Shown piece after piece: positions 34,108-61,922 of a DNA stretch of 64,000 bases. The stretch is from Hyphobacterium sp. CCMP332. GTDB lineage: Bacteria; Bacteroidota; Bacteroidia; Cytophagales; CCMP332. The notes under the pieces were generated by a model that saw only the letters and a list, made by a program, of their open reading frames with translations, was not told the DNA's origin and ran no database searches. Made by a program: the position numbers and the translations under genes. The stretch spans positions 186,001 to 250,000 of the forward strand of contig CP058647.1 in NCBI GenBank assembly GCA_014323545.1, in the 5' to 3' direction. Each line of letters starts with the position of its first letter. Position 1 is the stretch's first letter.

Positions 34108-35286
34108 TTAGGTATTAAAGTAGGATTTTATCTCTCCTGATATTTTTACTCCGAACTGGTCGAGGGTATTGTCCTTTGCCAATTCACGGGCATTTTTGAT
34201 CATATTTTTTCTCAATTCTTCCTTATCAATAATTTCATTTATCGATTTTACAAGACTTTCTACAGATTTTGGTATTGAGAGTATTCCATGCCGGTAATTA
34301 TCCATAAAATATGGGATTGATCCAACTTCACTCGCAATAACCGGTAAGGAATTGGCCATGGCCTCCCAAATCGTTCTGGGAAAACCTTCAAATCCACTTC
34401 TGGACGCAATACAGTAAATATCACATGAACGGTAGAGTTCATTTAATTCTGAACCGATTTTCAATTTACCATGCCATTGTACAATTCCCTCATTGCCCTG
34501 TTTTGCGGCCTCCCCTTTTAGTTTATCAATAAGATCATTTCTTTTTGTCAGAGAAAACCCGGCAATATGAAATTCTATCTTTTTATTATCGGAATTAATG
34601 ATTTTTAAAATGGCCTCCAGTATATCTTCCAAGCCTTTGGCTTCGTCGATACGGCCGGTATATAAGATCTTTATTACATCTCCCTGACAAGTATCTTCCC
34701 TGTCGTAAAAATCAGCTTTCTTAAGAGTGGTTGAGCGGATTAATTGGGTTTTGCCATTGAATTTTAAAAGTTTGTTTTGTTTTAAACGGCTATTGGTTAT
34801 GCACAATATATCAGAGGCTAATTTGTTTTGCAGGTTTTCATAATAATGGGCCCATAATTTTATCAATTGCTTTTTTAGCCAATTGCCTTTCATGCTTGAT
34901 AATCCGTCAATGTAGTCGCCAACGACATAAATCGCAGATTTTTTTGGAAACCTTTTGATAATGAAATTTGAAAGTGGACTTGGTGTCCGACAAAGTATAG
35001 CATCGAATTGCCCCTCGTATCTTTTGAATGTTTTGAGATAGTGCATAACTCTCATCAACCTCTTTGGGAAACTTAAATGAGGGCCAAGACCGATGACTTT
35101 AATGTTTTTAGATAGGATTTCATAATCCATATTTTTCATTTCATGCGCCAAAGGACTGTGCAAAAAACACAAGATGATTTCAAAATGGACGGCAATAGAA
35201 TCCAAAAAAACCCCTTGTTGAGCATCCGTAAAAATTTTGCCATTTTCTTCAAAACAGGGAATATGGTAGTGCACAGCCAGTCTCAT
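34108..35286 (-). CDS. Glycosyltransferase family 4
   Basis: A 392-residue GT-B enzyme. The frame opens upstream at 35391, but the ATG at 35286 (MRLAVHYHIP) forms an ATGA overlap with the stop of the ligase gene and gives a normal GT4 start, so it is chosen. The C-terminal half has ILYTGRIDEAKGLEDI and the EX7E region GFEGFPRTIWEAMANSLP. It adds a sugar in the cytoplasm. Confidence 0.87.
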   Translation of the reverse strand: MRLAVHYHIPCFEENGKIFTDAQQGVFLDSIAVHFEIILCFLHSPLAHEMKNMDYEILSKNIKVIGLGPHLSFPKRLMRVMHYLKTFKRYEGQFDAILCRTPSPLSNFIIKRFPKKSAIYVVGDYIDGLSSMKGNWLKKQLIKLWAHYYENLQNKLASDILCITNSRLKQNKLLKFNGKTQLIRSTTLKKADFYDREDTCQGDVIKILYTGRIDEAKGLEDILEAILKIINSDNKKIEFHIAGFSLTKRNDLIDKLKGEAAKQGNEGIVQWHGKLKIGSELNELYRSCDIYCIASRSGFEGFPRTIWEAMANSLPVIASEVGSIPYFMDNYRHGILSIPKSVESLVKSINEIIDKEELRKNMIKNARELAKDNTLDQFGVKISGEIKSYFNT

Positions 35287-36497
35287 CGAAATGATCTCCT
35301 TTTCCCCCAGTTCATGCCTACAAAACCCAGTGCTATGACAAACCAGGCCATAACATTTAATATGGCAGTAATTACATACAAGTGGATACACATCAAAATA
35401 ATGGAAACAAGTATTATCCTCTGAAAATCAGACACTTTATGAAAAGTAAATAAGCCCGTCAGAATAATAATCGCGAGAATAGAAACGAAGGGCACAAATA
35501 AAAACAATCCCCCTTCGGCCAAAATATTAATATAGGAATTATGCGAGCCGATATCCATAATTTTCCCTTTGTTTATAACATATTCAGCGCCTTCAAACTC
35601 CCCGGGAAGCTGAATTTCATATCCCTGAAAATTGTTCAACCCAATGCCGTACTTCTTGTTTTCATTAAATATTTCCAGACCTTTTTCTACCATTGATCGC
35701 CTGATTAAATAGGATCGATCGGAAGAGAAGACCTCTTCAGTATTGTAAATAATATTATAAGTACGCTCATTCAAACCGTAAATAGTGTCCTGAACAATCG
35801 GCAGCGCAATGAAAAGGTTGCCAAAGAGTGCAATTATAATGGCATAAAAAAGAATTGTTCTAAACCGCAACTGATCAATTAGTAAGGCAGAAACGACACC
35901 ACCAGCCACAAGCAAAGACCCTGCTCTTGAACCGCTTAAAAAGGACAATACAATCAGAATAATACCGAAAAACAGGCCTTTTTGTTTACCGTTTTTAGAA
36001 ACAAAATGATAGGTGGCAATCGGAGTAAAACAAATGGCTAGAAATGAAAAGGCATTTTGTGAATAATCCTTGAATATTGGTATTAATTGAAAACCGATAC
36101 GCTGAAAAATGTGATAATAAAGCACGCAAATTATCAGACCGAGTAGAATTGCATCAAAAATGGCCCTCAGACTTATGAAATTTTTTATAGAGTTAAATAG
36201 TATAAGTATTAATGACCAATACATATAATTTAAAATAACCAGGCCTGAGCTATCCTGATCTGAACTATGGGCATATGACAATAAGGCTCCTATGGCAAAG
36301 GCTATGGCCAGGAGTGAAAAGGTAGAAAAAAGCTTTACAGGTTTTCCCTTTTCAATGAAATAGAAATAGATAAAAAATGGGAAAAAATAGAAGGATATAT
36401 TGAATACAACCTGTATAAACTGCAATACTATAAAGAGGGTAAACCAAAAAAGTATTTTCTCTTCTCTTTTATAATATTTATAGTCAATCAAGCGCAT
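35283..36497 (-). CDS. O-antigen ligase/polymerase (WaaL/Wzy-like)
   Basis: A 404-residue protein with about eleven membrane helices and the signature loop GSHNSYINILAEGG (about 315-328), the Wzy_C/WaaL region. It either joins finished glycan to a lipid or protein carrier or polymerises repeat units in the periplasm. In a locus with an ABC exporter the ligase role is more likely, but the sequence alone does not decide. Start and stop junctions are TGATG and ATGA. Confidence 0.82.
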   Translation of the reverse strand: MRLIDYKYYKREEKILFWFTLFIVLQFIQVVFNISFYFFPFFIYFYFIEKGKPVKLFSTFSLLAIAFAIGALLSYAHSSDQDSSGLVILNYMYWSLILILFNSIKNFISLRAIFDAILLGLIICVLYYHIFQRIGFQLIPIFKDYSQNAFSFLAICFTPIATYHFVSKNGKQKGLFFGIILIVLSFLSGSRAGSLLVAGGVVSALLIDQLRFRTILFYAIIIALFGNLFIALPIVQDTIYGLNERTYNIIYNTEEVFSSDRSYLIRRSMVEKGLEIFNENKKYGIGLNNFQGYEIQLPGEFEGAEYVINKGKIMDIGSHNSYINILAEGGLFLFVPFVSILAIIILTGLFTFHKVSDFQRIILVSIILMCIHLYVITAILNVMAWFVIALGFVGMNWGKRRSFR

Positions 36498-37471
36498 CAG
36501 GACATCCAGTATTTATAGATTTCCGGTGAACGATTTTCCCAGTAGGCCATTTCCTCACTGAATAAATAGTCCAATTCTCTTCTGTAGCTTTCCGAATTAT
36601 TTATTTTCTCCTTGTCGTAAATTTTTGCTCTAATCTTTAAAACCCCGCTTTTTAATAATGTTGACTTTTTTACCAGGCGATTTAATCCTATAATCCGAAA
36701 CAGCTGACGCATGGTTCTGGCCAAAAAAGAATTAGCCATGTAAGTCATATTGGAAGATTTTAATTGAATTTCCAATGGATTTTCAAGCCTTAGAAAGTTT
36801 GTTACCTTTTTTAAGGCTTTTTCTGTATCAAAACGCAATTCTTCAAGTGAAATGACTAAACAATTTTCCTTACCAAATTCGTTTTCCCATTTTTCTATAT
36901 AGGCAGAATAACAGGATTCCCTATAATATTTCAATTGGGTGAAATCTTCATCAATGCCCTCTTCAATCCTACTTTTATATTTGCTGTTAAGATTTGGAAA
37001 TTCAATTTTTCTATAATTTATTTTTCCGCTACTCTTAGCTTTTTCTAATTCAGATAATTCAATTGCTGAATTATTTTCATCTTTTTTGAATGCCTCGATT
37101 ACTTCCTTAAGAGTGCGATTTTCAATCTTGTTTCCCTTTTTAACATTGTGCATGTATGCAGAAACAAACCGAGTTTGAGGTTTGCGGATTATAAATACAA
37201 TTTTAACCTTCTCAAAATGAGATTTAATGTTGGCAATGGCATTGGAAGAATAAAGCGCAAGTGTAGATGCATCCAAAAATGTACCCGAAGAATCCATTTC
37301 CGAGGTCAGTTTATCGATATTTCTTTTAAAATCTGCACGCTTTAAACAGAATATCTGTGATTCCTTTAAATCTTTCAATGTAAATAATTGAGGATTCTCA
37401 GCAAGCATGTCGTAAAGCGTTGTAGTACCGCATTTTCTGATACCGGGAATTAAGACCAGACCTGGTTTCAA
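36497..37471 (-). CDS. Sulfotransferase (PAPS type)
   Basis: A 324-residue protein with the PAPS 5'-phosphosulfate loop GIRKCGTTTL (about 9-18) and the 3'-phosphate site FIIRKPQTRFVSAY. It moves sulfate from PAPS to a sugar. The TTG start forms TTGA with the stop of the GT2 gene. One of five sulfotransferases in the cluster. Confidence 0.85.
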   Translation of the reverse strand: MKPGLVLIPGIRKCGTTTLYDMLAENPQLFTLKDLKESQIFCLKRADFKRNIDKLTSEMDSSGTFLDASTLALYSSNAIANIKSHFEKVKIVFIIRKPQTRFVSAYMHNVKKGNKIENRTLKEVIEAFKKDENNSAIELSELEKAKSSGKINYRKIEFPNLNSKYKSRIEEGIDEDFTQLKYYRESCYSAYIEKWENEFGKENCLVISLEELRFDTEKALKKVTNFLRLENPLEIQLKSSNMTYMANSFLARTMRQLFRIIGLNRLVKKSTLLKSGVLKIRAKIYDKEKINNSESYRRELDYLFSEEMAYWENRSPEIYKYWMS

Positions 37472-39659: not shown

Positions 39660-40505
39660 TTAATTGTATTTATTTTTCCAGGTCGACAAGTCCAGATCAA
39701 ATTCTTTTTCCAGACTGTTTATATCCTCTTCAAATAACTGCCAGAGTACATTTTTAAATTGATTGGAAAAAGTTGTTTTCTTATCGGTTTTGCCATAAAA
39801 AACTGGTTTCAAACTTTTCCTTATTCCCGAAGGGGATATTTTACGCAGCCATTTAAATCCATCGCTGGCAATGAGCTTTTTGTATTTAAATTTTTGATGG
39901 TATTCGCCTACGGTGGATTTGCTTTGATTGTAGTTCAGTGAATTGGAAATATCTTCAATATCCAGAAATTGGAATATGGATGAAAGTACTTTTTCCGGCG
40001 AGGTTTTAAAATCATCAAAAAGCACAATTTTGATCTGGTCTTTTGGAAAATACTTTCTGAATTGTTTTAGCTGTAAATAATATTGGCTTCTGGTAATATA
40101 TTTGGATGCATTTAAAATTACTTTTTCTTCATCTTCACCTCTTGCGCCACCTCTTAATTTGTTAAAATCATAGTGTGAGAGACTTCGATCAACAGGATGG
40201 CGTATAACCGCTACAAATTTTAAATCAGGATTGTATTCAAATAAGCGTTTGGCTGTATTTCTAAATTCGGGAAAGGTGCTATACTGATCCGACGCTTCCG
40301 ACCAAAGTTTTGAATTATCCGAAAAATTTGAATGATAAAGATCGATTTTATTTTTCCAGTCTTTCTCGCGATTAAAAAATTGCGGATCTTTTTTTCCATT
40401 GTAAAAATGCAAAGCCGGATGTTGCCTTAACCACCGGTACAGGGAGGTGGTTCCGCATTTCTGGAATCCAATTTGCATGAAACCCACCCTTTTAGATTGT
40501 ATCAA
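39660..40505 (-). CDS. Sulfotransferase (PAPS type)
   Basis: A 281-residue protein with GFQKCGTTSLYRW (about 13-25) for PAPS binding and VAVIRHPVDRSLSHYD for the 3'-phosphate. The TTG start at 40505 is needed to keep the first strand (RVGFMQIG); an ATG at 40478 would cut it. Probably sulfates a sugar of the same glycan. Confidence 0.85.
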   Translation of the reverse strand: MIQSKRVGFMQIGFQKCGTTSLYRWLRQHPALHFYNGKKDPQFFNREKDWKNKIDLYHSNFSDNSKLWSEASDQYSTFPEFRNTAKRLFEYNPDLKFVAVIRHPVDRSLSHYDFNKLRGGARGEDEEKVILNASKYITRSQYYLQLKQFRKYFPKDQIKIVLFDDFKTSPEKVLSSIFQFLDIEDISNSLNYNQSKSTVGEYHQKFKYKKLIASDGFKWLRKISPSGIRKSLKPVFYGKTDKKTTFSNQFKNVLWQLFEEDINSLEKEFDLDLSTWKNKYN

Positions 40506-40586
40506 ATCAGAAATGGCAATTTTTAAGGGCGCTTTTCAGCGCCTGTTGATTGAATTAATACGACTTTATAATTATCGATAAAGTGA

Positions 40587-42716
40587 TTATTCCTTTATCA
40601 ACCTATGTATACTTGAAGATTTATCCGTTTTGATAATTCTTAATATATACTGTCCATTAGGGAAATCCTCTATTACAAATAATCCGGAAGCTATATCGGC
40701 TTCATTCCAGGCCATTAATTTTTTACCACGCAAATCAAAAATTGAAACCATTTCAATTTCATCCAAATTGCCGGTAATTGAAAAATGTCCTGAGTTTGGA
40801 TTTGGGAAAACCTTATTTTCAGATGCATTTAAACCAAACAATACTTCTGAAGCCCTCTTTCCGCCGGCCATTCTAGCCTGAGTATAGGTATAGGTACAGG
40901 TATCACCAAAAGTGGTTGTTTCACCGGTGATAATTGGCCTTACACTTATATTAATAGTACTCAAATCATAGCTGTCATCCAATTGATTAAAGACCAAGTA
41001 TGGAGCCGAAGATGTAATTAGTGTATCAAAAAAGGTATTGTAAACGCTGTATTCATAGCTGGCATCCGCTACCGGGAAAGTCCATATCCTATCCAGTGAA
41101 TCAGTGATGGTGGAACCACAGGTCGGTTTGCGTATATTAATGGTTGGAGCAGATAAAGTAATATCACAATTCGGGCCAAAAGGAGCATTCATACTGTTTA
41201 CTCTGTATCGCACGTCCAGGGTGTAATCCTCCCCATAGGTTGCAGTTGGGAATAAATCGCTTATTCTCATTTTACGTTCATTTGTCTGAACTATAAGTTG
41301 AACAATAGGATCCCCGTCACCTCTTATTCGCCATTCGTAATATTCTGCATTGGCTACATTTTCTGTGTAAAACAATTGGGCCTTATTAGTTACAATGCCG
41401 CCGCAGTCACTGCTCAATAGGCTAATTTGAGGTGTTAGTGATGAAAGCGTTACGGTACATGTACTACCAAAAGCCTGCCATGATCCATCTACAAATGCTG
41501 ATACCTGAATATCATAGTCACCTGCTTCAGTGGCACCCAGGTCTGCCAGCGTAAATTCATTATTTGTACTGTTCAATGTATCAGTGGCTGCAAAAGCACT
41601 GGGGCCTGTCACATTTAATCTGTAATTGGTGGCATTTCCGATGCGTTCAAAATCTATCTGATCACTGAGCAATGTAATATTTCCTCCACATTGTGGGGCC
41701 ATCACCTGAGGTAATTGCGCGGTCAGAACATTGATTGTCCATAATCCGTAATAAGCATCACTCCAAACTCCGGGTCCTCCACTTGTAATTATGCGGTGTC
41801 GGAGATTATAGGTACGGTTATAGGTCATTCCCGTTACTTCGGTCAGATTAAATTTATTGGTGGTATTAACAATATTTTGGGTGGTAAATCCTGTACCACT
41901 TATTTCAAATTCATAAGAGGTCGCAGATCCATTTGTAGTACAATACAAATTATCCTGAAGATTATTAGTAGTATAACCCATGTATTGATAAAGCATTCTG
42001 TTAAGTGTGGATGGAGGCGTATTTAATGGAATCCCTTTCACCACAATTTGATCAAAGAAGAGTTCTTCACTCGAAGAATTACATCGCAAACGTATTCTGA
42101 ACTCAGCCGTATCGCCTGTTACTGCAGTTGTATCTCTAAAAGCTTGCATGGTCTCACTCAAAATGGAGTCCTGCGCTTGTTCTCCCCCGAGGTTGTCAAG
42201 GTCATTGTCCCTGTACATTCTTTGAGAATTGGTACTTGCTGTTGGACCGTTTCTGAATTGCATTAATCTTGTCCAGGAACCCCCGTCGTAGCGCACATCT
42301 ACGTCAAGCCAATCCCGATTACTCCCGGCAAAAAAATCATAATTATTGGCCGACCTTGCACCTAATTTAAAAATGAAAATTAAATCCGAAAAACTATCCA
42401 CTTTTATCTGTCTTGTCGTAAATGTAACCACACCATCGCTCGGGCCACTTGTGGAACGGTCAAGGTCTTCAGCTGCAACTAGATAAGATCCGTTTAGACC
42501 TGTGATGCCAGAGGGCAATCCTGTAAATTGTGCCAAGGTACCTCTACCAAAATATGAGGAAATTCCAAAATCGTAAAACTGATGACTCAGCGTATATCTG
42601 GAATTATTGCCATCGGTTTCAAAATCTTCTACGTAAACATTTACATTTTGACTCGAGGCATTCAGAGTAAAAAGTATAAGGCAGATAAAAAGGGCGGTGG
42701 AGTATCTAATTAACAT
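40587..42716 (-). CDS. T9SS type A cargo protein with CGG-type repeats, inside the glycan cluster
   Basis: A 709-residue secreted protein. The signal peptide (1-23) is followed by a domain starting EDFETDGNNSRY, which resembles the jelly-roll modules of Bacteroidota secreted proteins. From about residue 340 come three repeats about 95 residues long that each begin PxCGGxxT or similar (about 338, 435, 530), probably Ig/FN3-like. A T9SS type A domain ends it (about 634-709, KVFPNPNSGHFSI ... NGQYILRI). It has gaps of 81 and 112 bp on its sides and its own candidate promoter box, unlike the tightly packed glycan genes. Function unknown; it may be a carrier or partner of the glycan. Confidence 0.88.
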   Translation of the reverse strand: MLIRYSTALFICLILFTLNASSQNVNVYVEDFETDGNNSRYTLSHQFYDFGISSYFGRGTLAQFTGLPSGITGLNGSYLVAAEDLDRSTSGPSDGVVTFTTRQIKVDSFSDLIFIFKLGARSANNYDFFAGSNRDWLDVDVRYDGGSWTRLMQFRNGPTASTNSQRMYRDNDLDNLGGEQAQDSILSETMQAFRDTTAVTGDTAEFRIRLRCNSSSEELFFDQIVVKGIPLNTPPSTLNRMLYQYMGYTTNNLQDNLYCTTNGSATSYEFEISGTGFTTQNIVNTTNKFNLTEVTGMTYNRTYNLRHRIITSGGPGVWSDAYYGLWTINVLTAQLPQVMAPQCGGNITLLSDQIDFERIGNATNYRLNVTGPSAFAATDTLNSTNNEFTLADLGATEAGDYDIQVSAFVDGSWQAFGSTCTVTLSSLTPQISLLSSDCGGIVTNKAQLFYTENVANAEYYEWRIRGDGDPIVQLIVQTNERKMRISDLFPTATYGEDYTLDVRYRVNSMNAPFGPNCDITLSAPTINIRKPTCGSTITDSLDRIWTFPVADASYEYSVYNTFFDTLITSSAPYLVFNQLDDSYDLSTINISVRPIITGETTTFGDTCTYTYTQARMAGGKRASEVLFGLNASENKVFPNPNSGHFSITGNLDEIEMVSIFDLRGKKLMAWNEADIASGLFVIEDFPNGQYILRIIKTDKSSSIHRLIKE

Positions 42717-42733
42717 AACTATAATGGTTAAGG

Positions 42734-42741
42734 CAAAACTA
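42734..42741 (-). promoter_or_regulatory. Candidate -7 box for the T9SS cargo gene
   Basis: TAGTTTTG on the minus strand matches TAnnTTTG and lies 17 bp before the ATG at 42716. No TTG is found 17-23 bp upstream. The rest of the 112-bp gap is AT-rich without other clear signals. Confidence 0.4.
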
Positions 42742-42828: not shown

Positions 42829-44040
42829 TCAGGACAGTACTTTCTCAAACATGTTTTCAAACTCATTTAATTGGTGCCTAAGACTACGCCCGGCAACATT
42901 GCTTTTAGCATTTTCACTAAAATTATCCAACAAATCCTTGTCAATTAAGTTCAAAAGGGCTTCTGCAAATCCTTCGGGGCTATATTTTTCTATTACTAAT
43001 CCCGAATATTCATTTTTTACATTTTCAGGCAATCCACCGGCATTTGACACAATACAAGCTTTTCCAAGCATCTGGGCCTGGGTAACAGAATTATTAAAAC
43101 CTTCTTCTATACTCAGCAGTACATAGATATCCGCATTCATCACCAATTGATTGACTTCATTTTGATTTTTCCAACCACAGAATTCAAGCTTATCATTGAT
43201 TTGAAGTCTTTTGGCCTCAAATTTTAAAAACTCCATTTCCGGACCGTCGCCTACAATAATGTATTTGAAATTTAATTCCGGACGATTGTATTTAAGAATT
43301 GACAAGGCTCTCAGCACATAAATATGACCCTTGGTCCAATATAAGCGGGAGCTTGTTATAAGTGTGATTTCTGATTTTTCAGGGTTCACTTCTTTATATT
43401 TGTCCTTAAGGTCTACCGGAAGTGAAGCAGGTTGAATTATGCTTATATTTTTGCTGTCATAACCTTGCGCTACAGCCTTATTTTTTAAATATTCTCCCAG
43501 TACATGTAGCTGATCACAATTTTGGAGAACTTTTCTAAAAGAATCGGGCTCGAAATCAAAGTCCTGGCCTCGTGAACTACAAATCACTTTGGTTTCCTTA
43601 AAAAAAGCCTCAATGCAGATATGTCTGGCCACTTGAAGTGAATTAAAATATACCAGATCGTATTTCCGGCTCAAAAGTTTATGATAATAAATCAGTTGGC
43701 CTATGGACTGATAAAAAGTATAGTTGTTTTTCAAACAGAGTTTTAGAACCAGCAAAGATCGCCTGAATTTAACTAGTAAATAAAAAACGGGAATTATATA
43801 GGCTAATGGATTTTTAGTAAAATTGAAACGCAAAAAAATGCTTTGTTCTATTTTCTTCAATTCCTCATTTCCAATTAGATCTTTGGCCAGTCTTCTTTCT
43901 CCTTTTTTGAATAAAAAGAATTCCAAATTGGGATATTTTAGTTTTAAACCGTGGAATAAAAAACTAATGTAAGGATGCGTAGCCGTTGGCCAAATGCTTG
44001 AAAAAATGAGGATTTTATTCTCAGATTGTTTGTTTTTCAA
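42829..44040 (-). CDS. Glycosyltransferase family 4
   Basis: A 403-residue GT-B enzyme. The N-terminal half has LIFSSIWPTATHPYI; the C-terminal half has TLITSSRLYWTKGHIYVL and the EX7E region SIEEGFNNSVTQAQMLGKA. In place of the usual second Glu of EX7E it has Gln (E-E-G-F...AQ), an unusual variant. It starts with TTG, 3 bp after the sulfotransferase stop. Confidence 0.8.
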   Translation of the reverse strand: MKNKQSENKILIFSSIWPTATHPYISFLFHGLKLKYPNLEFFLFKKGERRLAKDLIGNEELKKIEQSIFLRFNFTKNPLAYIIPVFYLLVKFRRSLLVLKLCLKNNYTFYQSIGQLIYYHKLLSRKYDLVYFNSLQVARHICIEAFFKETKVICSSRGQDFDFEPDSFRKVLQNCDQLHVLGEYLKNKAVAQGYDSKNISIIQPASLPVDLKDKYKEVNPEKSEITLITSSRLYWTKGHIYVLRALSILKYNRPELNFKYIIVGDGPEMEFLKFEAKRLQINDKLEFCGWKNQNEVNQLVMNADIYVLLSIEEGFNNSVTQAQMLGKACIVSNAGGLPENVKNEYSGLVIEKYSPEGFAEALLNLIDKDLLDNFSENAKSNVAGRSLRHQLNEFENMFEKVLS

Positions 44041-44043
44041 GAA

Positions 44044-44880
44044 TTAATTAGGCATTAATTGTTGCGGTTTTTTCCACTTGCTCAAATCAAAACCGCTAAA
44101 ATTTTCAAGTTTTTCAAGATCATCTTTTAGTTCATTGCGAATATAGGCCTCTGTTTCATTGTTCATTTTTTGTTTTTGCGCGATCGATTCTGAAAACATA
44201 CTTTTAAGTGTTTGCCGGATTCTATATGGCATTATTTTTATAATGGGATTATTCAGCACCATTCTTCCTCTATCCGTTAGATAGGAATGATTCAATGATT
44301 GATTGGTTTTGGGCAGATTGTTTATATTATCAAATTCCCTGCCGTCGATTTCAAGGAAATGGCACAAGGTTAAAATTTCAGCTCTGAAATTTTCAATCAG
44401 CTTTTCAAATTGAACGACTTTAATCTGATCGGCTGAAAAATACTTCAGGTATCGCTCAATTTGCATATGATATTTGCTGATTTCGATATAGGCGCGGTTT
44501 TGTCTAATTGCTTCATCTATAGATGTTTTTTCCCTTCCTCTCACCTGCCTATGTGCAAAATGCGATTCAATTCTTTTTACGGGGTCTTTTATTATATAAA
44601 TGAGTTTGATTTTGGGGTTATATTCAAAAATATTGTTGGGTGTATCGGGAAACTCCGGGTAAAAGGAATACATGGTAGAAGCTTCTCCCCTGATTTTTTG
44701 ATCGTCTTTATCAAACAATTCATCGTATTCATCAAGTCTGTCGCGCCAATTTTCCCGAATAAAAAAAGCGGGTTCTTTGATTTTCGAGAAAGAGATCCGG
44801 GAATGAGTAGAAAGTAATTCTGCTAAACTGGTTGTTCCGCATTTTTGAGCTCCGAAAATAATGAAACTGACTTTAGCCAT
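44044..44880 (-). CDS. Sulfotransferase (PAPS type)
   Basis: A 278-residue protein with FGAQKCGTTSL (9-19) and IYIIKDPVKRIESHF for PAPS binding. It overlaps the upstream GT4 by 8 bp. It most resembles the one at 39660-40505 in length and layout. Confidence 0.87.
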   Translation of the reverse strand: MAKVSFIIFGAQKCGTTSLAELLSTHSRISFSKIKEPAFFIRENWRDRLDEYDELFDKDDQKIRGEASTMYSFYPEFPDTPNNIFEYNPKIKLIYIIKDPVKRIESHFAHRQVRGREKTSIDEAIRQNRAYIEISKYHMQIERYLKYFSADQIKVVQFEKLIENFRAEILTLCHFLEIDGREFDNINNLPKTNQSLNHSYLTDRGRMVLNNPIIKIMPYRIRQTLKSMFSESIAQKQKMNNETEAYIRNELKDDLEKLENFSGFDLSKWKKPQQLMPN

Positions 44881-47126: not shown

Positions 47127-47689
47127 AAACTTTTGATCGAATAATATTTTCGTCCCACAACTAAGCTCGATACAGACTTTATGAATTCAAATCCCAATTT
47201 TTCAAGGCTTTTTCTTTGTGCAATATTATCTGCAGCTGTATAAATCCAAACTTTTTGCAAGCCTTTCTTCAAGCAATAATCCAGCATGTACCACATTATA
47301 TAAGTATTTAAACCCTGTCCTTGATACTCTTTTTTTACCCTGGTATGATAAATTATGGCAGAAACATTTTTCTCAACTTCAAAATTAAAATTACCTTTTT
47401 GAACAAAGTGCTGACCTTCGAGTTGCAGCCAGTGGTATGCAATAGGATTAGGACCAACATAAGTTAAAAAACAAACAGAATTTCCCGATTGAATCCGTTT
47501 AGTAAATTGAGACTGACTGACATTCCATATTTTTTTTATCTCACTGAAGCTTTCGATTTCGGCCAAACGTACTTCGGGCTCAATAGAAATTATAGGTTTA
47601 CTCAATGGTTTCTTTAAATCGTATTCATAAAAAACTTCTTTATGCGTACCCAATTTAAAATTCTTTATAAATTTTCTAGCTCTGTACAT
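47123..47689 (-). CDS. GNAT-family acetyltransferase
   Basis: A 188-residue protein with a GNAT core: KKEYQGQGLNTYIMW for acetyl-CoA binding and NIAQRKSLEKLGFEF at the end. The N-terminal 50 residues are extra. It probably acetylates a sugar amine. Its start lies inside the 3' end of the deacetylase-like gene. Confidence 0.75.
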   Translation of the reverse strand: MYRARKFIKNFKLGTHKEVFYEYDLKKPLSKPIISIEPEVRLAEIESFSEIKKIWNVSQSQFTKRIQSGNSVCFLTYVGPNPIAYHWLQLEGQHFVQKGNFNFEVEKNVSAIIYHTRVKKEYQGQGLNTYIMWYMLDYCLKKGLQKVWIYTAADNIAQRKSLEKLGFEFIKSVSSLVVGRKYYSIKSL

Positions 47690-48650
47690 CTGATAATCCT
47701 AGAGAGCTCATTTCAAAGTGTCCATATAAATAATCAAAAAGTGTATCTAAACTTTCGAAATAAGATTTTACTTCAATTTCTGTTTGAGCATAAGGACTTG
47801 TTCCCGCTAAAATTTCATTGCTGTGAAACATCATATTCAGTACCGTGGAATGAACTGAATTTGAATAGTTTTTGACAAAGCTATCTGCCAGATTGATCAT
47901 TTCCTTTGCATTACTTTTCCAGGGCCGAAACCAGGTTATTTTGGAAGATTTACCCAATTTTCCCAGTATCTTTTTGTGCCATTTGCTATTATCATCCAAT
48001 TTTCGCAATATGGGTCTTGGCCATTTCATTAAATGCGGATTACCCAAGGTAGCAGGGACTTCCAGAATTTTCATTTTGCCCTTTTTTCTGAAATCTTGTG
48101 TGGATGGATGATAGGGTTGTAAAGGAGCTCCCCAGAAGTTGACTTTACCCTGTTTGAATGTATGCGTTCTAAAACTACAGACAGATGAATCAACGGTGTA
48201 ACCCAGCTCTTCAAGAAATGGAAGTGTATTTTTGCTTATTCCCCAGCGTCCTGCCCGAAATGATTTTGGAGCGTAGTTAAATTTGGATTCAAAAAGATTT
48301 GTTAGATTCTTGAGCTTTTCTTTTTCAACATTAGAATCGTAGGCCAATTGAGGTGTTTTGGTTCGTCCGGCCTCCCAATCAGCCTGGGGTTCAATGAATT
48401 CGCCGTGCAAATGCGTTCCAAGTTCAGCATTTGTGAGTGATTTAAACAAATCCACACATTGCGCGTTTTGCATGACCTCTGGACTTAATAAATAACTCGG
48501 CCTTATATTATATTTTTCAAAGAGAGGGTTGAGATATTTAGGGATGCCATGAATGATATTATCAAATGACATTGGTTTCTTTATTTTCCATGCGGGCCCT
48601 TTATCGCATTCCGTATCAATGCTTATAATCAGGATAATTTTAGCTTTCAT
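47676..48650 (-). CDS. Polysaccharide-deacetylase-like protein (WalW type)
   Basis: A 324-residue protein of the carbohydrate esterase 4 fold. The ATG at 48650 is chosen over a TTG at 48659. Motifs: SIDTECD (D12) for the first acidic site, GTHLHGE (H80, H82) and FRAGRWG. The order fits NodB-like enzymes, though the usual TFDD is changed, as in WalW-type proteins of glycan clusters. It may remove acetyl from an amino sugar so that a GNAT or FemAB-like enzyme can attach something else. Confidence 0.75.
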   Translation of the reverse strand: MKAKIILIISIDTECDKGPAWKIKKPMSFDNIIHGIPKYLNPLFEKYNIRPSYLLSPEVMQNAQCVDLFKSLTNAELGTHLHGEFIEPQADWEAGRTKTPQLAYDSNVEKEKLKNLTNLFESKFNYAPKSFRAGRWGISKNTLPFLEELGYTVDSSVCSFRTHTFKQGKVNFWGAPLQPYHPSTQDFRKKGKMKILEVPATLGNPHLMKWPRPILRKLDDNSKWHKKILGKLGKSSKITWFRPWKSNAKEMINLADSFVKNYSNSVHSTVLNMMFHSNEILAGTSPYAQTEIEVKSYFESLDTLFDYLYGHFEMSSLGLSDVQS

Positions 48651-50457
48651 TTTTATCAAGCCACTTTCCTAGAATAATTAATGACCATATATGGTTTTTC
48701 TTATTGGAATTATAAATATCCTCTAAACCGCTTTGGTTAAAGAACTTAAGTAAACTGCTGTTTTCAGATTTAAAATAGTGACTTAAAATCTCAATAAACT
48801 CTTTATCCTCCTTAATCCATTTTGTTAGTGGAACAGTAAAGCCATGTTTTGGCCTCTCAACAAAATCTTTAGAAAAGGTTTTTAGTAAAATATTTTGAAG
48901 AGGTAATTTGCCTTTAAAGCCATTATTTTGATATTCAAAGTAAAACTCAGGAGGAAGCTTGGAAATAAAATTTGCCAATTTAACATCAACAAATGGTGTT
49001 CTCACTTCCAAGGAATTCATCATAGAAGCTATGTCAACTTTAGGCAACATGTTTCCTTGTAAAAGTAATTTGATATCCATGTTCTGAACTTGTTGAAGAT
49101 CAGATAATTGATTGCCGGAATCAAAAATTGATTTTAAGTAATTTGCATTTTTTTTTGGGCTTATTTTTAAACAGTTTTTCCATAATCTATTTCGAATGAC
49201 ATTATTTAAACCGGGAGTAAGTTTTAACCAATTCTCATAGGTTCTCTGAAGGTCTTTACTCCTATTTTTAATCCTTGAGATTAGTAAATGAGCATGTGAA
49301 CTGAAATTCTTATTTTGATTGTTTAATTTCTGTAACCAGTTAAAATAGGAGTTGTATCCTCCCAGGAATTCATCTGCACCATCACCTGAAAGCACCATTT
49401 TAACTTCATTTGATGCCATTTTACTAAGGTAATAAGTTGGTAAGACTGAGCTATCACCAAAAGGCTCGCCCGAATGATCTATTATGGAATCAATTATACC
49501 TACTGATTCCGCCTTAACTTGAAATTGATAATGATCCAGACCAAATGTTTCTGATGCTTTTTTTGCATAGCCAAGTTCAGAATACTCATCTTCAAATTCA
49601 ATGGTAAAAGATTTAACACCTTTTCCAAGGTATTCACTCATGTATTTGGTAATAATGGTGGAATCAATTCCTCCGGAAAGAAAGGCGCCATATGGCACAT
49701 CAGAATAAGTATGATGAATTACAGAATCTCTGAGTTCATCTTCAAAAGCCTCAGAAAGATCTTCAAACTTTGTATTAAAATCAGGATTAAATTCAAAATT
49801 GTAGTATTGGTGTTCTTTGAGACTATTGGTATTTAAGTTATATGTTAAATAATGGCCCGGTTTAAGCTTTCTGATTTCGTTATAAATAGTAAAGGGTGCA
49901 GGGATATAGTTTAATTTTAGATAAAGATCAAGCGCATTTAAATCCAGGGTCAAATTTGTATTCCCTAATGACTTTAAAGCATTAATTTCTGAAGAAAAGG
50001 CGAAGGATTCGTTTTCGTGAAAATAATGCAATGGCTTAATGCCAAAATGATCCCTGGCAATTATTATCGAATCTTGTGCTTTATCATAAAATGCAAAGGA
50101 AAACATCCCTCTAAGGTAATTCAGGCTTTTTGTACCATCGATTTTTAAAGCTTCCAAAAGGACTTCAGTATCTGATTTAGTTTTAAGATTATTCAACTTT
50201 AATTTTCGAGCAATTTCTTTATAGTTGTAAATCTCACCGTTGAATATTAAAACATATCTTCCATCCTCACTTATCATTGGTTGAGTCCCATCTTTTACAT
50301 CAATTATTGATAATCTTCTGTGGCCTAAATGCAAATTTTTGCTATTGTAAATACCACTTGCGTCAGGACCTCTGTGAAATAATTTATGTAATGACTGTTT
50401 AAATTCCTCAATATCAAGTGTTCCGTTTTTGCTGTGATATCCTAGTATTCCACACAT
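48640..50457 (-). CDS. asnB: Asparagine synthase (glutamine-hydrolysing) family
   Basis: A 605-residue two-domain amidotransferase. Cys2 is the glutaminase nucleophile (MCGILGYHSK), followed by HRGPDASG and FNGEIYNY. The synthetase domain has the ATP loop SGGIDST (261-267). It uses glutamine to amidate a carboxylate through an AMP ester. In O-antigen loci this family often amidates sugar acids rather than aspartate (as with WbpS), which is more likely here because of the context. Confidence 0.88.
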   Translation of the reverse strand: MCGILGYHSKNGTLDIEEFKQSLHKLFHRGPDASGIYNSKNLHLGHRRLSIIDVKDGTQPMISEDGRYVLIFNGEIYNYKEIARKLKLNNLKTKSDTEVLLEALKIDGTKSLNYLRGMFSFAFYDKAQDSIIIARDHFGIKPLHYFHENESFAFSSEINALKSLGNTNLTLDLNALDLYLKLNYIPAPFTIYNEIRKLKPGHYLTYNLNTNSLKEHQYYNFEFNPDFNTKFEDLSEAFEDELRDSVIHHTYSDVPYGAFLSGGIDSTIITKYMSEYLGKGVKSFTIEFEDEYSELGYAKKASETFGLDHYQFQVKAESVGIIDSIIDHSGEPFGDSSVLPTYYLSKMASNEVKMVLSGDGADEFLGGYNSYFNWLQKLNNQNKNFSSHAHLLISRIKNRSKDLQRTYENWLKLTPGLNNVIRNRLWKNCLKISPKKNANYLKSIFDSGNQLSDLQQVQNMDIKLLLQGNMLPKVDIASMMNSLEVRTPFVDVKLANFISKLPPEFYFEYQNNGFKGKLPLQNILLKTFSKDFVERPKHGFTVPLTKWIKEDKEFIEILSHYFKSENSSLLKFFNQSGLEDIYNSNKKNHIWSLIILGKWLDKNES

Positions 50458-50458
50458 C

Positions 50459-51502
50459 TTAATTGTGTCTTGATAATAACTTATTCTTTAAATCGACTAC
50501 TTTCTTAAATTTTTTTATTCGCTTCAAATTTTTAGAGTTTCTGTTTTCAATATCCATAAAAATATAATCTTCTTTTTCTCTGGCATATTGGGTTTTATAA
50601 GGTGATTCCCCTCTCATGAAATTAAACTGAATGATTTTAGGATTGTGAAAAGCAGATTTAAGGGTTTCGAATAACAGTATTTTACTTGGTGAATAAAACT
50701 TATAATTTTCGTCAAAGGCCGGGGTATAATGATACTGAATACCATCTTTCAGAAAATCCAATTGATAAGCCCATATTTTATCATCACTACCTAAAAGATA
50801 CGACAATTGAATCCATCCCTTTTTTTCATAAACCTCTACTACCTCCTCAAGCATTTTTCTATGGGCATTTCTTGAAAATGCATTTTGCTGACCAGTGCTT
50901 TGTCTTCGTTGATCATAAATTGTTAATAGCTTTTCAAGATGATCTTTTATATTTTCGTGTTGTTCAACCACTTTATAGCTTAAATTAGCTTTCTTCAATC
51001 GATTAAACCTACCTCTAACATCCCTTAGACTTTTGTGAAGAAAATCATTATAATAGCTATCCCAATCTGCTGTCGTATCAACAAAATAGAAATGTCGATG
51101 TCTACGAATGGAAACCTGAAATCCAGCCTCTTCCATAGATGATTTAAATTCAAACCAGCCCGAAGATGATTCAGGGACATAATACAAATGCAAGAAATCC
51201 CATTTATCTATAATGCTTAAAAGGTGATCTTTACAGGAATTAGCAAATTCCTTGTAGCCTTCATTTAATAATGGAAATAATACAAAATCATTGGGGCCGT
51301 GACCTAGTGGGAAGAGATGCTTTTCATTAAATAATCGATATCGGACTTGTTCCCTAATTTCAAATTGAAATTCTGAATTTTCTTTTCCCAGATTAACAAT
51401 ATTTTTAGTGTTGATACTAAAATTCTTGTTGTAGATTTTAAACCATTCTTTTTGGGAGTGAATATTGTAATTATTACCCCTGATTGTCTTTACTATCCCC
51501 AA
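50459..51502 (-). CDS. CelD/BcsL-like GNAT-fold protein
   Basis: A 347-residue protein of the double-GNAT type found next to polysaccharide genes (Acetyltransf_6). The middle has LHKSLRDVRGRFNRLKKA and the second half GSDDKIWAYQLDFLKDG and YSPSKILLFETLKSAF. The only near start is TTG at 51502, which overlaps the GT2 by 29 bp. The family is thought to acylate sugars or to transfer amino acids from tRNA in the FemAB manner; which one applies here is open. Confidence 0.72.
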   Translation of the reverse strand: MGIVKTIRGNNYNIHSQKEWFKIYNKNFSINTKNIVNLGKENSEFQFEIREQVRYRLFNEKHLFPLGHGPNDFVLFPLLNEGYKEFANSCKDHLLSIIDKWDFLHLYYVPESSSGWFEFKSSMEEAGFQVSIRRHRHFYFVDTTADWDSYYNDFLHKSLRDVRGRFNRLKKANLSYKVVEQHENIKDHLEKLLTIYDQRRQSTGQQNAFSRNAHRKMLEEVVEVYEKKGWIQLSYLLGSDDKIWAYQLDFLKDGIQYHYTPAFDENYKFYSPSKILLFETLKSAFHNPKIIQFNFMRGESPYKTQYAREKEDYIFMDIENRNSKNLKRIKKFKKVVDLKNKLLSRHN

Positions 51503-58026: not shown

Positions 58027-58851
58027 TTAGTTTTTATTCCAATCAAATTCTTGTCCAATTAAATTGAATAGTTTTTCATTGTATGGTTTAAATAAATTTT
58101 TAAGAATGGCTCCCGTATCAGAATTAATTTTTAAATGATACTTTCTTTCATTCATATTTGAGGCACGCAGTTTTTGTTTATTATCAATTCCAATAAAATT
58201 TAAAATTTCTTTATGAACTAACTCGACGTTTAATTTGTAATAATTACTTTCCAATATCATTATTTGATCTTTTGGAAAAACCTTCAAATAATTATTTACC
58301 TGATCATAATAAATTCCTCTTCTTAAATAGCCGTATGGATCGCGATACCAATTTACTGATTCAATATTCATTAGTTCATTTTGAATTGCCTCTTCAAAAG
58401 TACGCTTATCCTCTAGTTTAAAATGATTCCTTGACAGGTGAAAATTATGATACATTGTCCAAGCTGAATAAGCCCTTGAAACGGGCTCTCTCAATAAAAT
58501 TATAATTTTAATTTTTGGATCATAATTAAAGATTCTTTTTGCACATTCAGGATGGTATAAATACTCAGGTGTTGCTTCAAATGTAATCTGATTTTTATTG
58601 ATTTGATGAGGTTTTGGAAAATTAGTATGGTAATAATAATGACCCCTCAGTTTATATAATGAATCGTTTGAAAAATAGCCCATTTCCTTAATCGGAGGAG
58701 CTATGATTTCTGAATGTGAAGACAGATATTGAAACAAAGCTGATGTTCCTGCCTTTTGTGCACCTACAATTAGAAAGGATGGTTTTGTGTGGTATCCAAA
58801 TTGAACGAAATAATTATTGATTTTTTCGCGTTTTTGTTTGGAAGGGATCAT
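58027..58851 (-). CDS. Sulfotransferase (PAPS type)
   Basis: A protein of 274 residues from the ATG at 58851; a GTG at 58860 would form a GTGA overlap with the upstream gene and is also possible. PAPS site IVGAQKAGTSALFQYL, 3'-phosphate site IILLREPVSRAYSAW. It is closely related to the next gene, a recent tandem duplicate in layout (same NVDREP/RNP...RAYSAW region). Confidence 0.87.
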   Translation of the reverse strand: MIPSKQKREKINNYFVQFGYHTKPSFLIVGAQKAGTSALFQYLSSHSEIIAPPIKEMGYFSNDSLYKLRGHYYYHTNFPKPHQINKNQITFEATPEYLYHPECAKRIFNYDPKIKIIILLREPVSRAYSAWTMYHNFHLSRNHFKLEDKRTFEEAIQNELMNIESVNWYRDPYGYLRRGIYYDQVNNYLKVFPKDQIMILESNYYKLNVELVHKEILNFIGIDNKQKLRASNMNERKYHLKINSDTGAILKNLFKPYNEKLFNLIGQEFDWNKN

Positions 58852-58856
58852 TTTAA

Positions 58857-59645
58857 TCACCAATTAAAATCTTCACCAATTAATTCTGATAATCTCTTAT
58901 TGTAAGGAGAATAAAAATCTATTAATTTTTTATGAGTCTCCTTAGAAATTTCATACTGATATGAGCCTTTTGCTTTTTGCTTTTTATTTTTTTCAACAAA
59001 ATCAAATGGTGTAACATCTAGAAATTCACAAATTAATAGGTTAAATTTCTTTTTATTCTGCCAATATTTTTCACTTTCCAATATCAATATTTGATCCCTA
59101 TCAAAAATTTTAAAAAGATTTAAAATCTGATTAATGTAAATTCCTTTGTCAAGATAAAAATGTATATTCATAGTGTCTTGTACTTTGTTTAATTCATTAT
59201 CTATTGCTACTTCAAATGGCCTGGTCTCCAATAATTTTTTTTCTCGACCTTCGTCTTTATATAAATTTGAAAACATATTCCAAGCTGAATAGGCTCTTTT
59301 GACAGGATTTCTTAGTAATACAATTATCTTCGCATTTGGATTATATTTTTTTAATCGTTCTAATGCTTTAGGAAAAAACAAGTAAGATGGAGTAGCTTCT
59401 AAAAGAATTTTTGAAGACCAAAAAGAAATTTTAGGGAATTGTTTATAATACCAACTGACACCTTGATTTAAATATTTATGTTCAGAAGAGAAAAAGTGAA
59501 CTTCTTTATTAAATGAAGTAATTATTTGTGGATGATCTTTTAGTGTTTCAAATAATTCTGTAGTCCCCGATTTCTGAGCGCCTATAATAAATGCTGAACA
59601 TTTTTTTAACAACCTAACTCTGTATAAGACATTAATAATTGGCAT
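58857..59645 (-). CDS. Sulfotransferase (PAPS type)
   Basis: A 262-residue protein from ATG 59645 (or 264 from GTG 59651). PAPS site IIGAQKSGTTELFETL and 3'-phosphate site IVLLRNPVKRAYSAW, then FEVAIDNEL. It overlaps the Wzt gene by about 14 bp. Very AT-rich. Confidence 0.87.
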   Translation of the reverse strand: MPIINVLYRVRLLKKCSAFIIGAQKSGTTELFETLKDHPQIITSFNKEVHFFSSEHKYLNQGVSWYYKQFPKISFWSSKILLEATPSYLFFPKALERLKKYNPNAKIIVLLRNPVKRAYSAWNMFSNLYKDEGREKKLLETRPFEVAIDNELNKVQDTMNIHFYLDKGIYINQILNLFKIFDRDQILILESEKYWQNKKKFNLLICEFLDVTPFDFVEKNKKQKAKGSYQYEISKETHKKLIDFYSPYNKRLSELIGEDFNW

Positions 59646-60927
59646 CCTCACTTATTTCTTCCCAATTAAACTGTGGCTTTAACCAACCTTTTGATTTCCC
59701 CATCCATTCTCCTAATTTTTGGTTTGGAGGGCCAATCCTAAAAAAAACGACATCTATATATTTTTTCAACAACCTCGTTTCCATCCCAAATTTTACGATA
59801 TGAAAATTAACTGAAAATTCTCCTTCATTAAAAAATGGGGAAGGTATTGTACATTGGATCTTATGATTGCCAGTATTGAATTTTTGGAATTGAATATTTC
59901 TTGAACTAGTTACAAATAGAATATCTCCTCTCTCATTCTTGAATTGTAATGTAAATCCAAAATCATTTGATGGCTTTTGAAGAAATTCAAATTCAAGCAA
60001 AATCAATATATTCTTGTCCATTGGAAAATGATTTGTTAAGTTATGATCTTCAGAATGAATTTGAAGTGAATTTATTTTAATAAAGTCTTCCTTTAGATCT
60101 CCTTCCTCATCAAATAAATACTTTGAATCACCAATTTTATTGATGGATAAGTAACGATCTACCACTGCTTCAGACTCACCCTTGAACACAAGATTGCCAT
60201 TTTTTAGCAATAACGCCTTCGGGCATAAAGATTTAACCGCATTCATGTTATGGCTTACAAATAGTACGGTTCTGCCTTGCCCGGAAATATCTTCCATTTT
60301 ACCAAGACATTTTTTCTGAAATTCTGCATCACCTACTGCCAGTACTTCGTCTATAATTAAGATTTCGGGTTCAAGGTGTGCTGCTACACTAAACCCCAAA
60401 CGAACTTTCATTCCGCTGGAGTAAAATTTAACAGGGGTATCTATGTGTTTGTGCACACCGGCAAAATCAATGATTTCATCCAGTTTTGAATCGATCTCCC
60501 TTTTGGTCATCCCCAATATGGTCCCGTTCATATAGATATTATCGCGGCCACTAAGCTCAGGGTGAAAGCCTGTTCCAACTTCCAGCAGTGAAGAAACTCT
60601 GCCTTTAATTTCAATCTCTCCGCCGCTCGGTGGTGTTATTCGGCTTAAAATTTTTAATAGGGTACTCTTCCCAGCCCCATTATGCCCAATGATTCCCAGC
60701 ACCTCACCTTTTTTGACTTCAAAACTAATATCTTTCAAAGCCCAAAAAATGGTATCGTCTTCCCCATCCTTGAAAGAACTCAATCGCATAATCCGTCTAA
60801 GGTTACGCAAGGGGTAAGTAATCGCATTTTTAATATGGCCTGCAAAAGTGTCGGCCTTTTCATGAGTTCCTAAGCGATAGCGTTTGCTTATATTTTTGAC
60901 AGAAATTACAATATTGGAATTAGTCAT
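59632..60927 (-). CDS. wzt: ABC transporter ATPase, Wzt type with C-terminal glycan-binding domain
   Basis: A 431-residue ATPase. Walker A GHNGAGKST (81-89), signature YSSGMKVRLG (169-178), Walker B ILIIDEVLAVGD (189-200). The C-terminal part (about 265-431) is a beta-rich domain like the Wzt carbohydrate-binding domain, which recognises the finished chain end. It powers export of undecaprenyl-linked polysaccharide through the Wzm channel across the inner membrane. Confidence 0.9.
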   Translation of the reverse strand: MTNSNIVISVKNISKRYRLGTHEKADTFAGHIKNAITYPLRNLRRIMRLSSFKDGEDDTIFWALKDISFEVKKGEVLGIIGHNGAGKSTLLKILSRITPPSGGEIEIKGRVSSLLEVGTGFHPELSGRDNIYMNGTILGMTKREIDSKLDEIIDFAGVHKHIDTPVKFYSSGMKVRLGFSVAAHLEPEILIIDEVLAVGDAEFQKKCLGKMEDISGQGRTVLFVSHNMNAVKSLCPKALLLKNGNLVFKGESEAVVDRYLSINKIGDSKYLFDEEGDLKEDFIKINSLQIHSEDHNLTNHFPMDKNILILLEFEFLQKPSNDFGFTLQFKNERGDILFVTSSRNIQFQKFNTGNHKIQCTIPSPFFNEGEFSVNFHIVKFGMETRLLKKYIDVVFFRIGPPNQKLGEWMGKSKGWLKPQFNWEEISEDANY

Positions 60928-60962: not shown

Positions 60963-61922
60963 TTAAATAACAATTTGAGGCTTTAAAATTGACTTTAAAT
61001 CATTGGCCAGGGTTGCGCTGAAAACCTTTGAACCATTTTTATTTAAATGCAAGACATTATAAAAAAAGTCTTTGTTATAATTGATTTCATCTTTGGAGTA
61101 GTCCAGAAATAGCAAACTGTGTTTTGAAGCTATATTTTCATACAAATTGATTAAGGATGCCCTATTCTCTATAAATAACTGGCCTTCGATATATTCAGGT
61201 GGGTAAACCAGAATCAATTTCGTGGAATTGTTTTGGCATTCAATTATAAAATCCTCAAAAAGATCTATACTCTGAGAATCCAAATCGATTTTATAGGATT
61301 TAAATTTGTTTTTTGCCCTGTCAAAATCTTTGTTCCATGTTTTATCATTTGCCCTAAAACCCTTATACCGAATTTTTTTTGAATCCACTTTCCCATACCA
61401 TGAAAATAGAATATTGGCCATTGCATTGGTGTTGCCTGAATAGCGGATCAATGGAATAAAGAAATCGTATTTTTCAAAGCCCAGATAATCCGAGGTGTAT
61501 TTATAAAAATGCTCATTGAAGAGCATGTATGGAAGAAATTGATTTAGATTATATAAATCGGGCCTTTTTTGTAAAGTGGCATGATCGACAATTTGAATTA
61601 TGTATTCAGGACTTCCATTGTATTTCAGATTTAGGCTGTGTCTCAAATATTGCAATTGAAAATTGTGCCCGTCAATTCCAAAATTATAGGCGGAAATTCC
61701 TAATGAATCCTCAATTATTTGCGGATCGATTTGAACCCAGGCTCTGGAACTTCCATAAATAAGAAGAGGATCTTCGACTTCCGCTTCCAAAATGTCATTC
61801 CATACTGAAAACTCACCGATTTCTGTTTTAGCAAGTGATATTGAAAACAGCCGATCCAAAGGATAGATGACTGCCAGCAACAAAATAAAAAAGAATAATA
61901 GGGTTTTAAGAAATCTTCTCAC
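60963..61922 (-). CDS. SGNH-hydrolase-like partner of the MBOAT protein
   Basis: A 319-residue protein with one N-terminal membrane helix (6-22). IYGSSRAW (55-62) is the nucleophile block and NVLHLNKNG near the C-terminus the Asp/His block. With an MBOAT it forms a two-part O-acyltransferase: the MBOAT passes an acyl group across the membrane and the SGNH protein moves it to the sugar. It starts with GTG directly after the MBOAT stop with no gap. Confidence 0.8.
   Translation of the reverse strand: MRRFLKTLLFFFILLLAVIYPLDRLFSISLAKTEIGEFSVWNDILEAEVEDPLLIYGSSRAWVQIDPQIIEDSLGISAYNFGIDGHNFQLQYLRHSLNLKYNGSPEYIIQIVDHATLQKRPDLYNLNQFLPYMLFNEHFYKYTSDYLGFEKYDFFIPLIRYSGNTNAMANILFSWYGKVDSKKIRYKGFRANDKTWNKDFDRAKNKFKSYKIDLDSQSIDLFEDFIIECQNNSTKLILVYPPEYIEGQLFIENRASLINLYENIASKHSLLFLDYSKDEINYNKDFFYNVLHLNKNGSKVFSATLANDLKSILKPQIVI

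Follow-up and report, generated by a model that had tools for sequence, protein, structure and literature searches.

A gene for a T9SS cargo protein lies inside an O-antigen-type polysaccharide locus of Hyphobacterium sp. CCMP332, and its position raises the question of whether the protein acts with the glycan made there, is the one protein joined to it, or lies among the glycan genes by chance. The preliminary description of this DNA took the embedded gene as a possible mark of the protein that is joined to a sulfated glycan. The window referred to below is the whole 64,000-nt stretch analysed, and its genome is numbered G000. The likeliest answer is that the surface protein acts together with the glycan, on which it is anchored beside many other cargos, and the first reading is partly supported.

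The cargo gene and the surrounding glycan locus

The features of the locus, with the basis of each assignment in brackets, are as follows.

20540-22339, minus: second T9SS type A gene, 599 aa, at the locus edge, adjoining the initiating sugar transferase gene at 22437 (tail match)
35283-36497, minus: Wzy_C / O-antigen ligase-like membrane protein (domain scan)
36497-37471, minus: sulfotransferase (domain scan)
39660-40505, minus: sulfotransferase, next downstream of the cargo gene (PF00685, E 1.2e-14)
40528-40543, minus: hairpin GGCGCT-GAAA-AGCGCC, downstream of the cargo gene and not followed by a T run (z -2.3)
40587-42716, minus: T9SS type A cargo gene, 709 aa, ATG start (ORF, tail models, reciprocal best match in the G002 locus)
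40590-40811, minus: T9SS type A sorting domain, residues 636-709 (PF18962, TIGR04183)
40881-41999, minus: four FN3-like repeats, residues about 240-332, 341-425, 436-523 and 531-612 (sequence, AlphaFold2 model, Foldseek)
42009-42653, minus: N domain, residues 22-236, predicted beta-rich by a poor model (AlphaFold2 model, Foldseek)
42654-42716, minus: signal peptide, residues 1-21, approximate and placed by eye (MLIRYSTALFICLILFTLNASS)
42734-42741, minus: candidate Bacteroidota -7 box, 17 nt before the cargo ATG, of a motif no commoner than chance
42829-44040, minus: GT4 glycosyltransferase, next upstream of the cargo gene (domain scan)
44044-44880, minus: sulfotransferase (domain scan)
47676-48659, minus: locus marker protein with deacetylase-like motifs, SIDTEC, GTHLHGE, RAGRWG and MFHS (motifs, genome matches)
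48640-50457, minus: AsnB-like amidotransferase, WbpS-like as a lead only (best NCBIfam model TIGR03108 eps_aminotran_1)
50459-51502, minus: PF13480 acyltransferase, VimA-like as a lead only (Pfam)
58027-59651, minus: two further sulfotransferases, 58027-58863 and 58857-59651 (domain scan)
59632-60927, minus: Wzt-type ABC exporter ATPase (model match)
65590-66555 in window numbering (L038:1590-2555), same gene run, just past the window end: WbpB homologue (PDB WbpB 3oa2, E 5.6e-109)

The cargo gene is enclosed by an O-antigen-type run of minus-strand genes that extends from 22437 to 66555 and encodes GT4 and GT2 glycosyltransferases, Wzy_C, sugar-nucleotide enzymes, the AsnB-like protein, acyltransferases, five sulfotransferases and Wzt/Wzm, with Wzm named from position and synteny in place of a model match. 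Beyond the window end lie genes for a 179-aa protein, UpxY (over cut-off), WbpB, Wzc (over the eps_fam cut-off) and a Wza-like protein, the last named from context, as NCBIfam gave no match at E ≤ 1e-20. Five of the eight PF00685 matches in the genome fall in this run, and the sulfotransferase genes alone suggest that the glycan is sulfated.

The AsnB-like protein scores 422 bits against TIGR03108 eps_aminotran_1 (E 3.8e-126), under the cut-off of 817, and 401 bits against asn_synth_AEB, over the cut-off of 267. The 47676-48659 protein matched no Pfam or NCBIfam model, and its motifs, seen by eye, follow patterns that we take to be deacetylase-like. Models for VimA, VimE and pepcterm_femAB gave no match at E ≤ 0.01 to the 47676 and 50459 proteins, and neither VimA nor VimE was found among the locus proteins scanned. 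WbpB, the AsnB-like protein, the PF13480 acyltransferase and the deacetylase-like protein are leads that hint at a Wbp/Vim-like pathway but do not establish it. Elsewhere in the run, a DltB-like O-acyltransferase (61923-63368, minus strand; TIGR04091 E 1.5e-43, under cut-off) adjoins a 319-aa protein with no NCBIfam match (60963-61922), and O-acylation of the glycan by the DltB-like enzyme is possible.

The genes of the run are tightly packed and the cargo gene interrupts the packing, as had been described. The 43 gaps have a median of -4 nt; four of them are 80 nt or longer, and the cargo gene is flanked by two of these (112 nt before, 81 nt after). The promoter box ascribed to the gene, TAGTTTTG, is present 17 nt before the ATG and has the form TAnnTTTG, which we take to be the Bacteroidota -7 box consensus. 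The motif is no commoner in the window than chance (62 found versus a shuffle mean of 89.9) and no clear -33 element was seen near it, so that the box is weak as proof of a promoter of the gene's own.

The encoded 709-residue protein ends in a sorting domain that exceeds the cut-offs of both Pfam (Por_Secre_tail PF18962, residues 636-707, E 3.8e-7, 30.7 bits, cut-off 27) and NCBIfam (TIGR04183, residues 636-709, E 4e-9, 36.3 bits, cut-off 23), which bears out its description as T9SS cargo encoded in a glycan locus. Besides the tail, no Pfam domain was matched at E ≤ 1. The body comprises an N domain of about 215 residues and four repeats of about 90 residues. The label CGG-type, given to the repeats earlier, fits two of them (C343-G-G, C438-G-G), whereas the third such start is CGS (C533-G-S); repeat 1, which begins near residue 240, contains no Cys. 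As a second Cys follows each C-G-G/S start by 74-79 residues (C420, C517 and C607), repeats 2-4 may each hold one disulfide. The AlphaFold2 model of the protein is poor overall (mean pLDDT 55.6), with block pLDDT of 44-82 over the repeats; values of about 70-82 fall in repeat 3 and in parts of repeats 1 and 2. Foldseek matched the repeats to FN3 domains and GhpA fragments with low TM-scores. The N domain modelled alone was also poor (pLDDT 50.1, pTM 0.53), and with this model Foldseek returned, at low confidence, carbohydrate-binding modules (best E 7.9e-4), MAM domains and a gingipain adhesin domain (E 0.017). These matches give a hint, no more, of a jelly-roll fold, which was dropped as firm evidence because the model is too poor. 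The cargo protein may be adhesin- or lectin-like, with a beta-rich head, whose fold we infer from the model, an FN3-like stalk and a cleavable tail.

The genome contains a PorU gene (NF033707, 1267.6 bits, cut-off 420, G000:C1:1589067-1592417) and, in 3.33 Mb, 117 TIGR04183 matches, of which 114 are over cut-off and one lies in PorU itself. The genome search gave 116 matches (113 over cut-off) and omitted the window's gene (G000:C1:226590), which hmmscan places over cut-off and which was added; because of this omission the T9SS counts from the genome search are lower bounds. At this density, 1.47 tail matches are expected per 41,780 bp, and a random stretch of this size has a 66% chance of containing one or more. 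Position alone is therefore no evidence of association and was rejected as such. In Porphyromonas gingivalis, the cargos are reported to share an A-LPS anchor (PMC13086638; PMC9143113). One anchor is likewise expected for all type A cargos, so that the gene need not single out the protein joined to the glycan, as had been proposed.

Further left in the window, two more T9SS-tailed genes (10243-11850 and 11843-13069, minus strand) overlap by 8 nt, with a 3030-aa ORF (1158-10250) downstream of them. Two 155-aa ORFs, one at 684-1151 and the other roughly 5 kb to its left (L037), have identical first 15 residues (MKFKSLVVPILIILS) and are an apparent duplication.

Conservation and parallels

Three genomes of the family were examined, the window's own included: G000, G002 from another genus, and G001 from the genus of G002. 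Apart from the own genome, only G002 yielded a match that was not confined to the tail, with 31-32% identity across the full length, and a single-protein search without the tail matched 14 of 390 genomes of the order, at full length in G000 and G002 only. The G002 contig is orthologous to positions 15911-87051 of the own genome (window numbering), housekeeping flanks included. The cargo proteins are reciprocal best matches, and their genes lie in corresponding sub-regions of the orthologous loci, displaced by three genes between the two genomes. In G002 the gene sits packed between glycosyltransferase genes: there is a 22-nt overlap between its start and the upstream one, and the following one has an open frame from the cargo stop, with the nearest ATG/GTG/TTG 270 nt on. 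The glycosyltransferase neighbours are 29-37% identical between the two genomes, similar to the 31% of the cargo; reciprocal best matches in the locus range from 26 to 60%, versus up to 75-77% for the housekeeping flanks. For the T9SS gene at 20540, the G002 contig gave no match at E ≤ 1e-4. Since 23 of the 40 other ORFs in 22437-64216 also have a reciprocal best match in G002, retention of the cargo gene is not exceptional. The 47676 marker has matches in five of 390 genomes, at full length in G000 and G002 only. Neither cargo nor marker was found in G001, whose contig ends shortly after Wzt and so covers only part of the locus.

The locus was probably inherited by G000 and G002 from a common ancestor, and the two therefore count as one event. 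The association of cargo and locus is real and is conserved in two genera, and the keeping of the gene in the same operon by a relative in another genus suggests that the protein works with the glycan.

A looser parallel to this two-genus association occurs in G273, from another family, where a protein with the same four-repeat-plus-tail layout is encoded inside a glycan locus. Its gene has a Wzy_C gene on one side and, on the other, a gene whose glycosyltransferase match falls slightly short of the cut-off. One end of that locus is formed by Wza, Wzc and UpxY homologues and the other by WbpE, WbpD and WbpB homologues; the locus contains two sulfotransferases, and its WbpB is 60% identical to that of the window's genome. 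Against the single window protein the G273 protein matched with E 4.5e-15 over residues 256-488, and HHalign of the G000/G002 pair against it gave 99.5% over residues 217-709, which include all four repeats and the tail. N-domain homology between G000/G002 and G273 was not found, so the insertion may have been independent. Candidate proteins of G273 matched NF053580 VimE (E 0.0029) and TIGR03019 (E 0.0027), both far below cut-off. No homology was found between the 50459 acyltransferase and the G273 candidate, and that between the 47676 protein and the G273 deacetylase-like protein was unconvincing (HHalign probability 10%). Sulfotransferase genes accompany the cargo gene in all three loci (G000, G002 and G273), a co-occurrence that the preliminary description had suggested checking.

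A repeat profile was built from three members of the protein family without the tail; G000, G002 and G273 are its rows in the order search and score by construction. At E ≤ 1e-6 it matched 68 of the 345 genomes searched in the class, one of them the window's own, and at E ≤ 1e-3 it matched 35 of 380 in the order, a figure that counts the three source genomes; both results contradict the description of the repeats as uncommon. The ORFs around related proteins were compared with a set of glycan genes, here called the panel. In the class, 40 places were compared, many of them shortened by contig ends; three (L098, L127 and L107) had at least two panel genes nearby and five (L095, L106, L124, L129 and L130) had exactly one. 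The relevant genes lie on the same strand at L107, and on the opposite strand at L098 (G602) and L127 (G627), which come from one other genus and have repeat proteins beside AsnB- and GT4-like genes. Among 20 further places in the order, one had two or more panel genes (L154, other strand) and five had one. No glycan cluster was present at the 11 partial matches (L027, L029-L036, L041 and L042), several of which gave single generic hits, and the N-domain homologues of Winogradskyella and Aestuariibaculum lie outside glycan loci. The possibility raised at the outset, that the gene occurs in relatives only at unrelated places away from glycan genes, does not hold for G002, which keeps it in the orthologous locus, but few related proteins elsewhere lie beside glycan genes.

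WbpB was found in 15 of 83 genomes at E ≤ 1e-60. Twelve further WbpB stretches were taken, of which six show a clear glycan cluster (G049, G017, G035, G008, G011 and G046); the others (G064, G050, G063, G078, G036 and G021), with no clear cluster or too short a contig, were left out of the six-locus count. With a tail model made from 12 seed sequences of the own genome and iterated once, an embedded T9SS gene was detected in one of the six, G008, where it is flanked by a Wzc homologue and a 178-aa gene and encodes a different kind of protein (919 aa, G008:C22:100083-102842, L179). G017 has one T9SS gene immediately upstream of Wza, in the same orientation, and two on the other strand just past WbpB (L168-L171); G046 has three immediately outside its WbpB locus, also on the other strand (L188-L189). 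A general rule that glycan loci of this sort carry cargo was rejected, as no T9SS gene lies inside the remaining five clear WbpB loci.

Working member, passenger, carrier or antigen

We give about an even chance to the reading that the T9SS type A surface protein belongs to the O-antigen-type locus as a stable, working member, anchored by PorU and acting with the glycan. The cargo would be exported by Sec and then by the T9SS, its tail would be cleaved off and, by analogy, PorU would join the protein to LPS, with the polysaccharide and at least one linking-sugar enzyme (WbpB) supplied by this locus. The gene would be kept in the operon because the protein acts with the glycan, most likely displayed on it or binding it. 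The type A tail, the PorU gene and the orthology of the G002 contig count for this reading, as do the retention of the cargo at 31% identity where gene 20540 has no counterpart, and the presence in G000 and G002 of both cargo and 47676 marker, neither of which was found in G001. The G273 parallel and the loss of cellulase anchoring in a Cytophaga hutchinsonii ugd mutant also favour it. Against it stand the ease of chance placement, the 23 other ORFs with reciprocal best matches in G002, the unrelated N domain of G273 and the scarcity of glycan genes near related proteins elsewhere. A passenger gene is a serious rival and a quite plausible one: the gene would be one of more than 100 for T9SS surface proteins, placed in the locus by chance and inherited, with a function unrelated to the glycan. 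Such an origin fits the high density of tails in the genome, the two large gaps with a hairpin after the gene and a possible box before it, the shift by three genes between the two genera, and the location of related proteins mostly outside glycan loci. It fits less well with the retention of the cargo gene where 20540 has no counterpart in the G002 locus, with the 22-nt overlap between the G002 cargo and its upstream glycosyltransferase, and with the comparable gene inside a glycan locus of another family.

The strict form of the first reading makes this one protein a dedicated carrier covalently joined to the sulfated glycan. The type A tail, PorU, WbpB in the same run and sulfotransferases in all three loci agree with it, but 114 matches over cut-off bear the same kind of tail, the P. 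gingivalis cargos share their A-LPS anchor, and a T9SS gene is lacking inside five of six clear WbpB glycan loci; we consider a dedicated carrier very improbable. It is also unlikely that the protein is a glycocalyx or phage-facing surface antigen, an exchangeable cassette varying together with the O-antigen-like chain, since G000 and G002 have the same protein rather than different ones, even though identities in the locus (26-60%) are lower than those of the housekeeping flanks and the locus of G008 carries another T9SS protein in a different position. A cargo gene retained in a WbpB-bearing glycan locus suggests a likely anchor glycan for this order, and provides a natural reporter protein for testing it.

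Comparison with known anchoring systems

The literature searched, mostly titles and the beginnings of abstracts, contained no description of a T9SS cargo gene inside a polysaccharide locus. Cytophaga hutchinsonii belongs to the same order as the window's genome. Its ugd mutant reportedly lost the O-antigen together with outer-membrane anchoring of the T9SS cellulase Cel9A (PMC11858162).

The T9SS/A-LPS system of P. gingivalis resembles the present one in the type A tail, the PorU gene, the WbpB homologue, here in the locus, and O-antigen-type genes; its function is treated in PMC4031482 as well as PMC13086638. WbpB is reported to be needed there for the sugar that joins cargo to LPS (PMC7468200). 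Here, unlike in P. gingivalis, the cargo gene lies inside the glycan locus along with sulfotransferases, and the Wbp/Vim genes recognised among the locus proteins scanned are WbpB plus leads. Linking sugars for T9SS cargo are described as known from a few oral bacteria and as differing among them, P. intermedia using another sugar and having no WbpB, WbpD, VimA or VimE (PMC11969387). Over the repeats, Foldseek matches link the cargo protein to FN3 stalks and to the Aureispira grappling-hook protein GhpA (PDB 9flu and others), although at 12-17% identity and low TM-scores, and GhpA, to go by its fragment titles, has thousands of residues in contrast to the 709 here.

In exosortase/rhombosortase bacteria, FemAB-type acyltransferase, deacetylase and asparagine-synthase-like genes are reported to lie near glycosyltransferases or wbp genes (PMC7468200). 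The AsnB-like protein, PF13480 acyltransferase and deacetylase-like protein near glycosyltransferases give the present locus a similar composition to PEP-CTERM/exosortase EPS and GlyGly-CTERM/rhombosortase loci. It differs from PEP-CTERM/exosortase systems in that the sortase is PorU, encoded elsewhere in the genome, and the cargo tail is of the T9SS; no exosortase was found among the locus proteins scanned. A bolder and rather doubtful proposal is that some Cytophagales carry a self-contained surface unit, which would make a sulfated LPS-type anchor glycan with a WbpB-derived aminoacyl-uronate linking sugar and would also supply a dedicated T9SS protein, anchored to the glycan and binding or organising it. 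If true, such a unit would be the T9SS counterpart of the exosortase-EPS loci.
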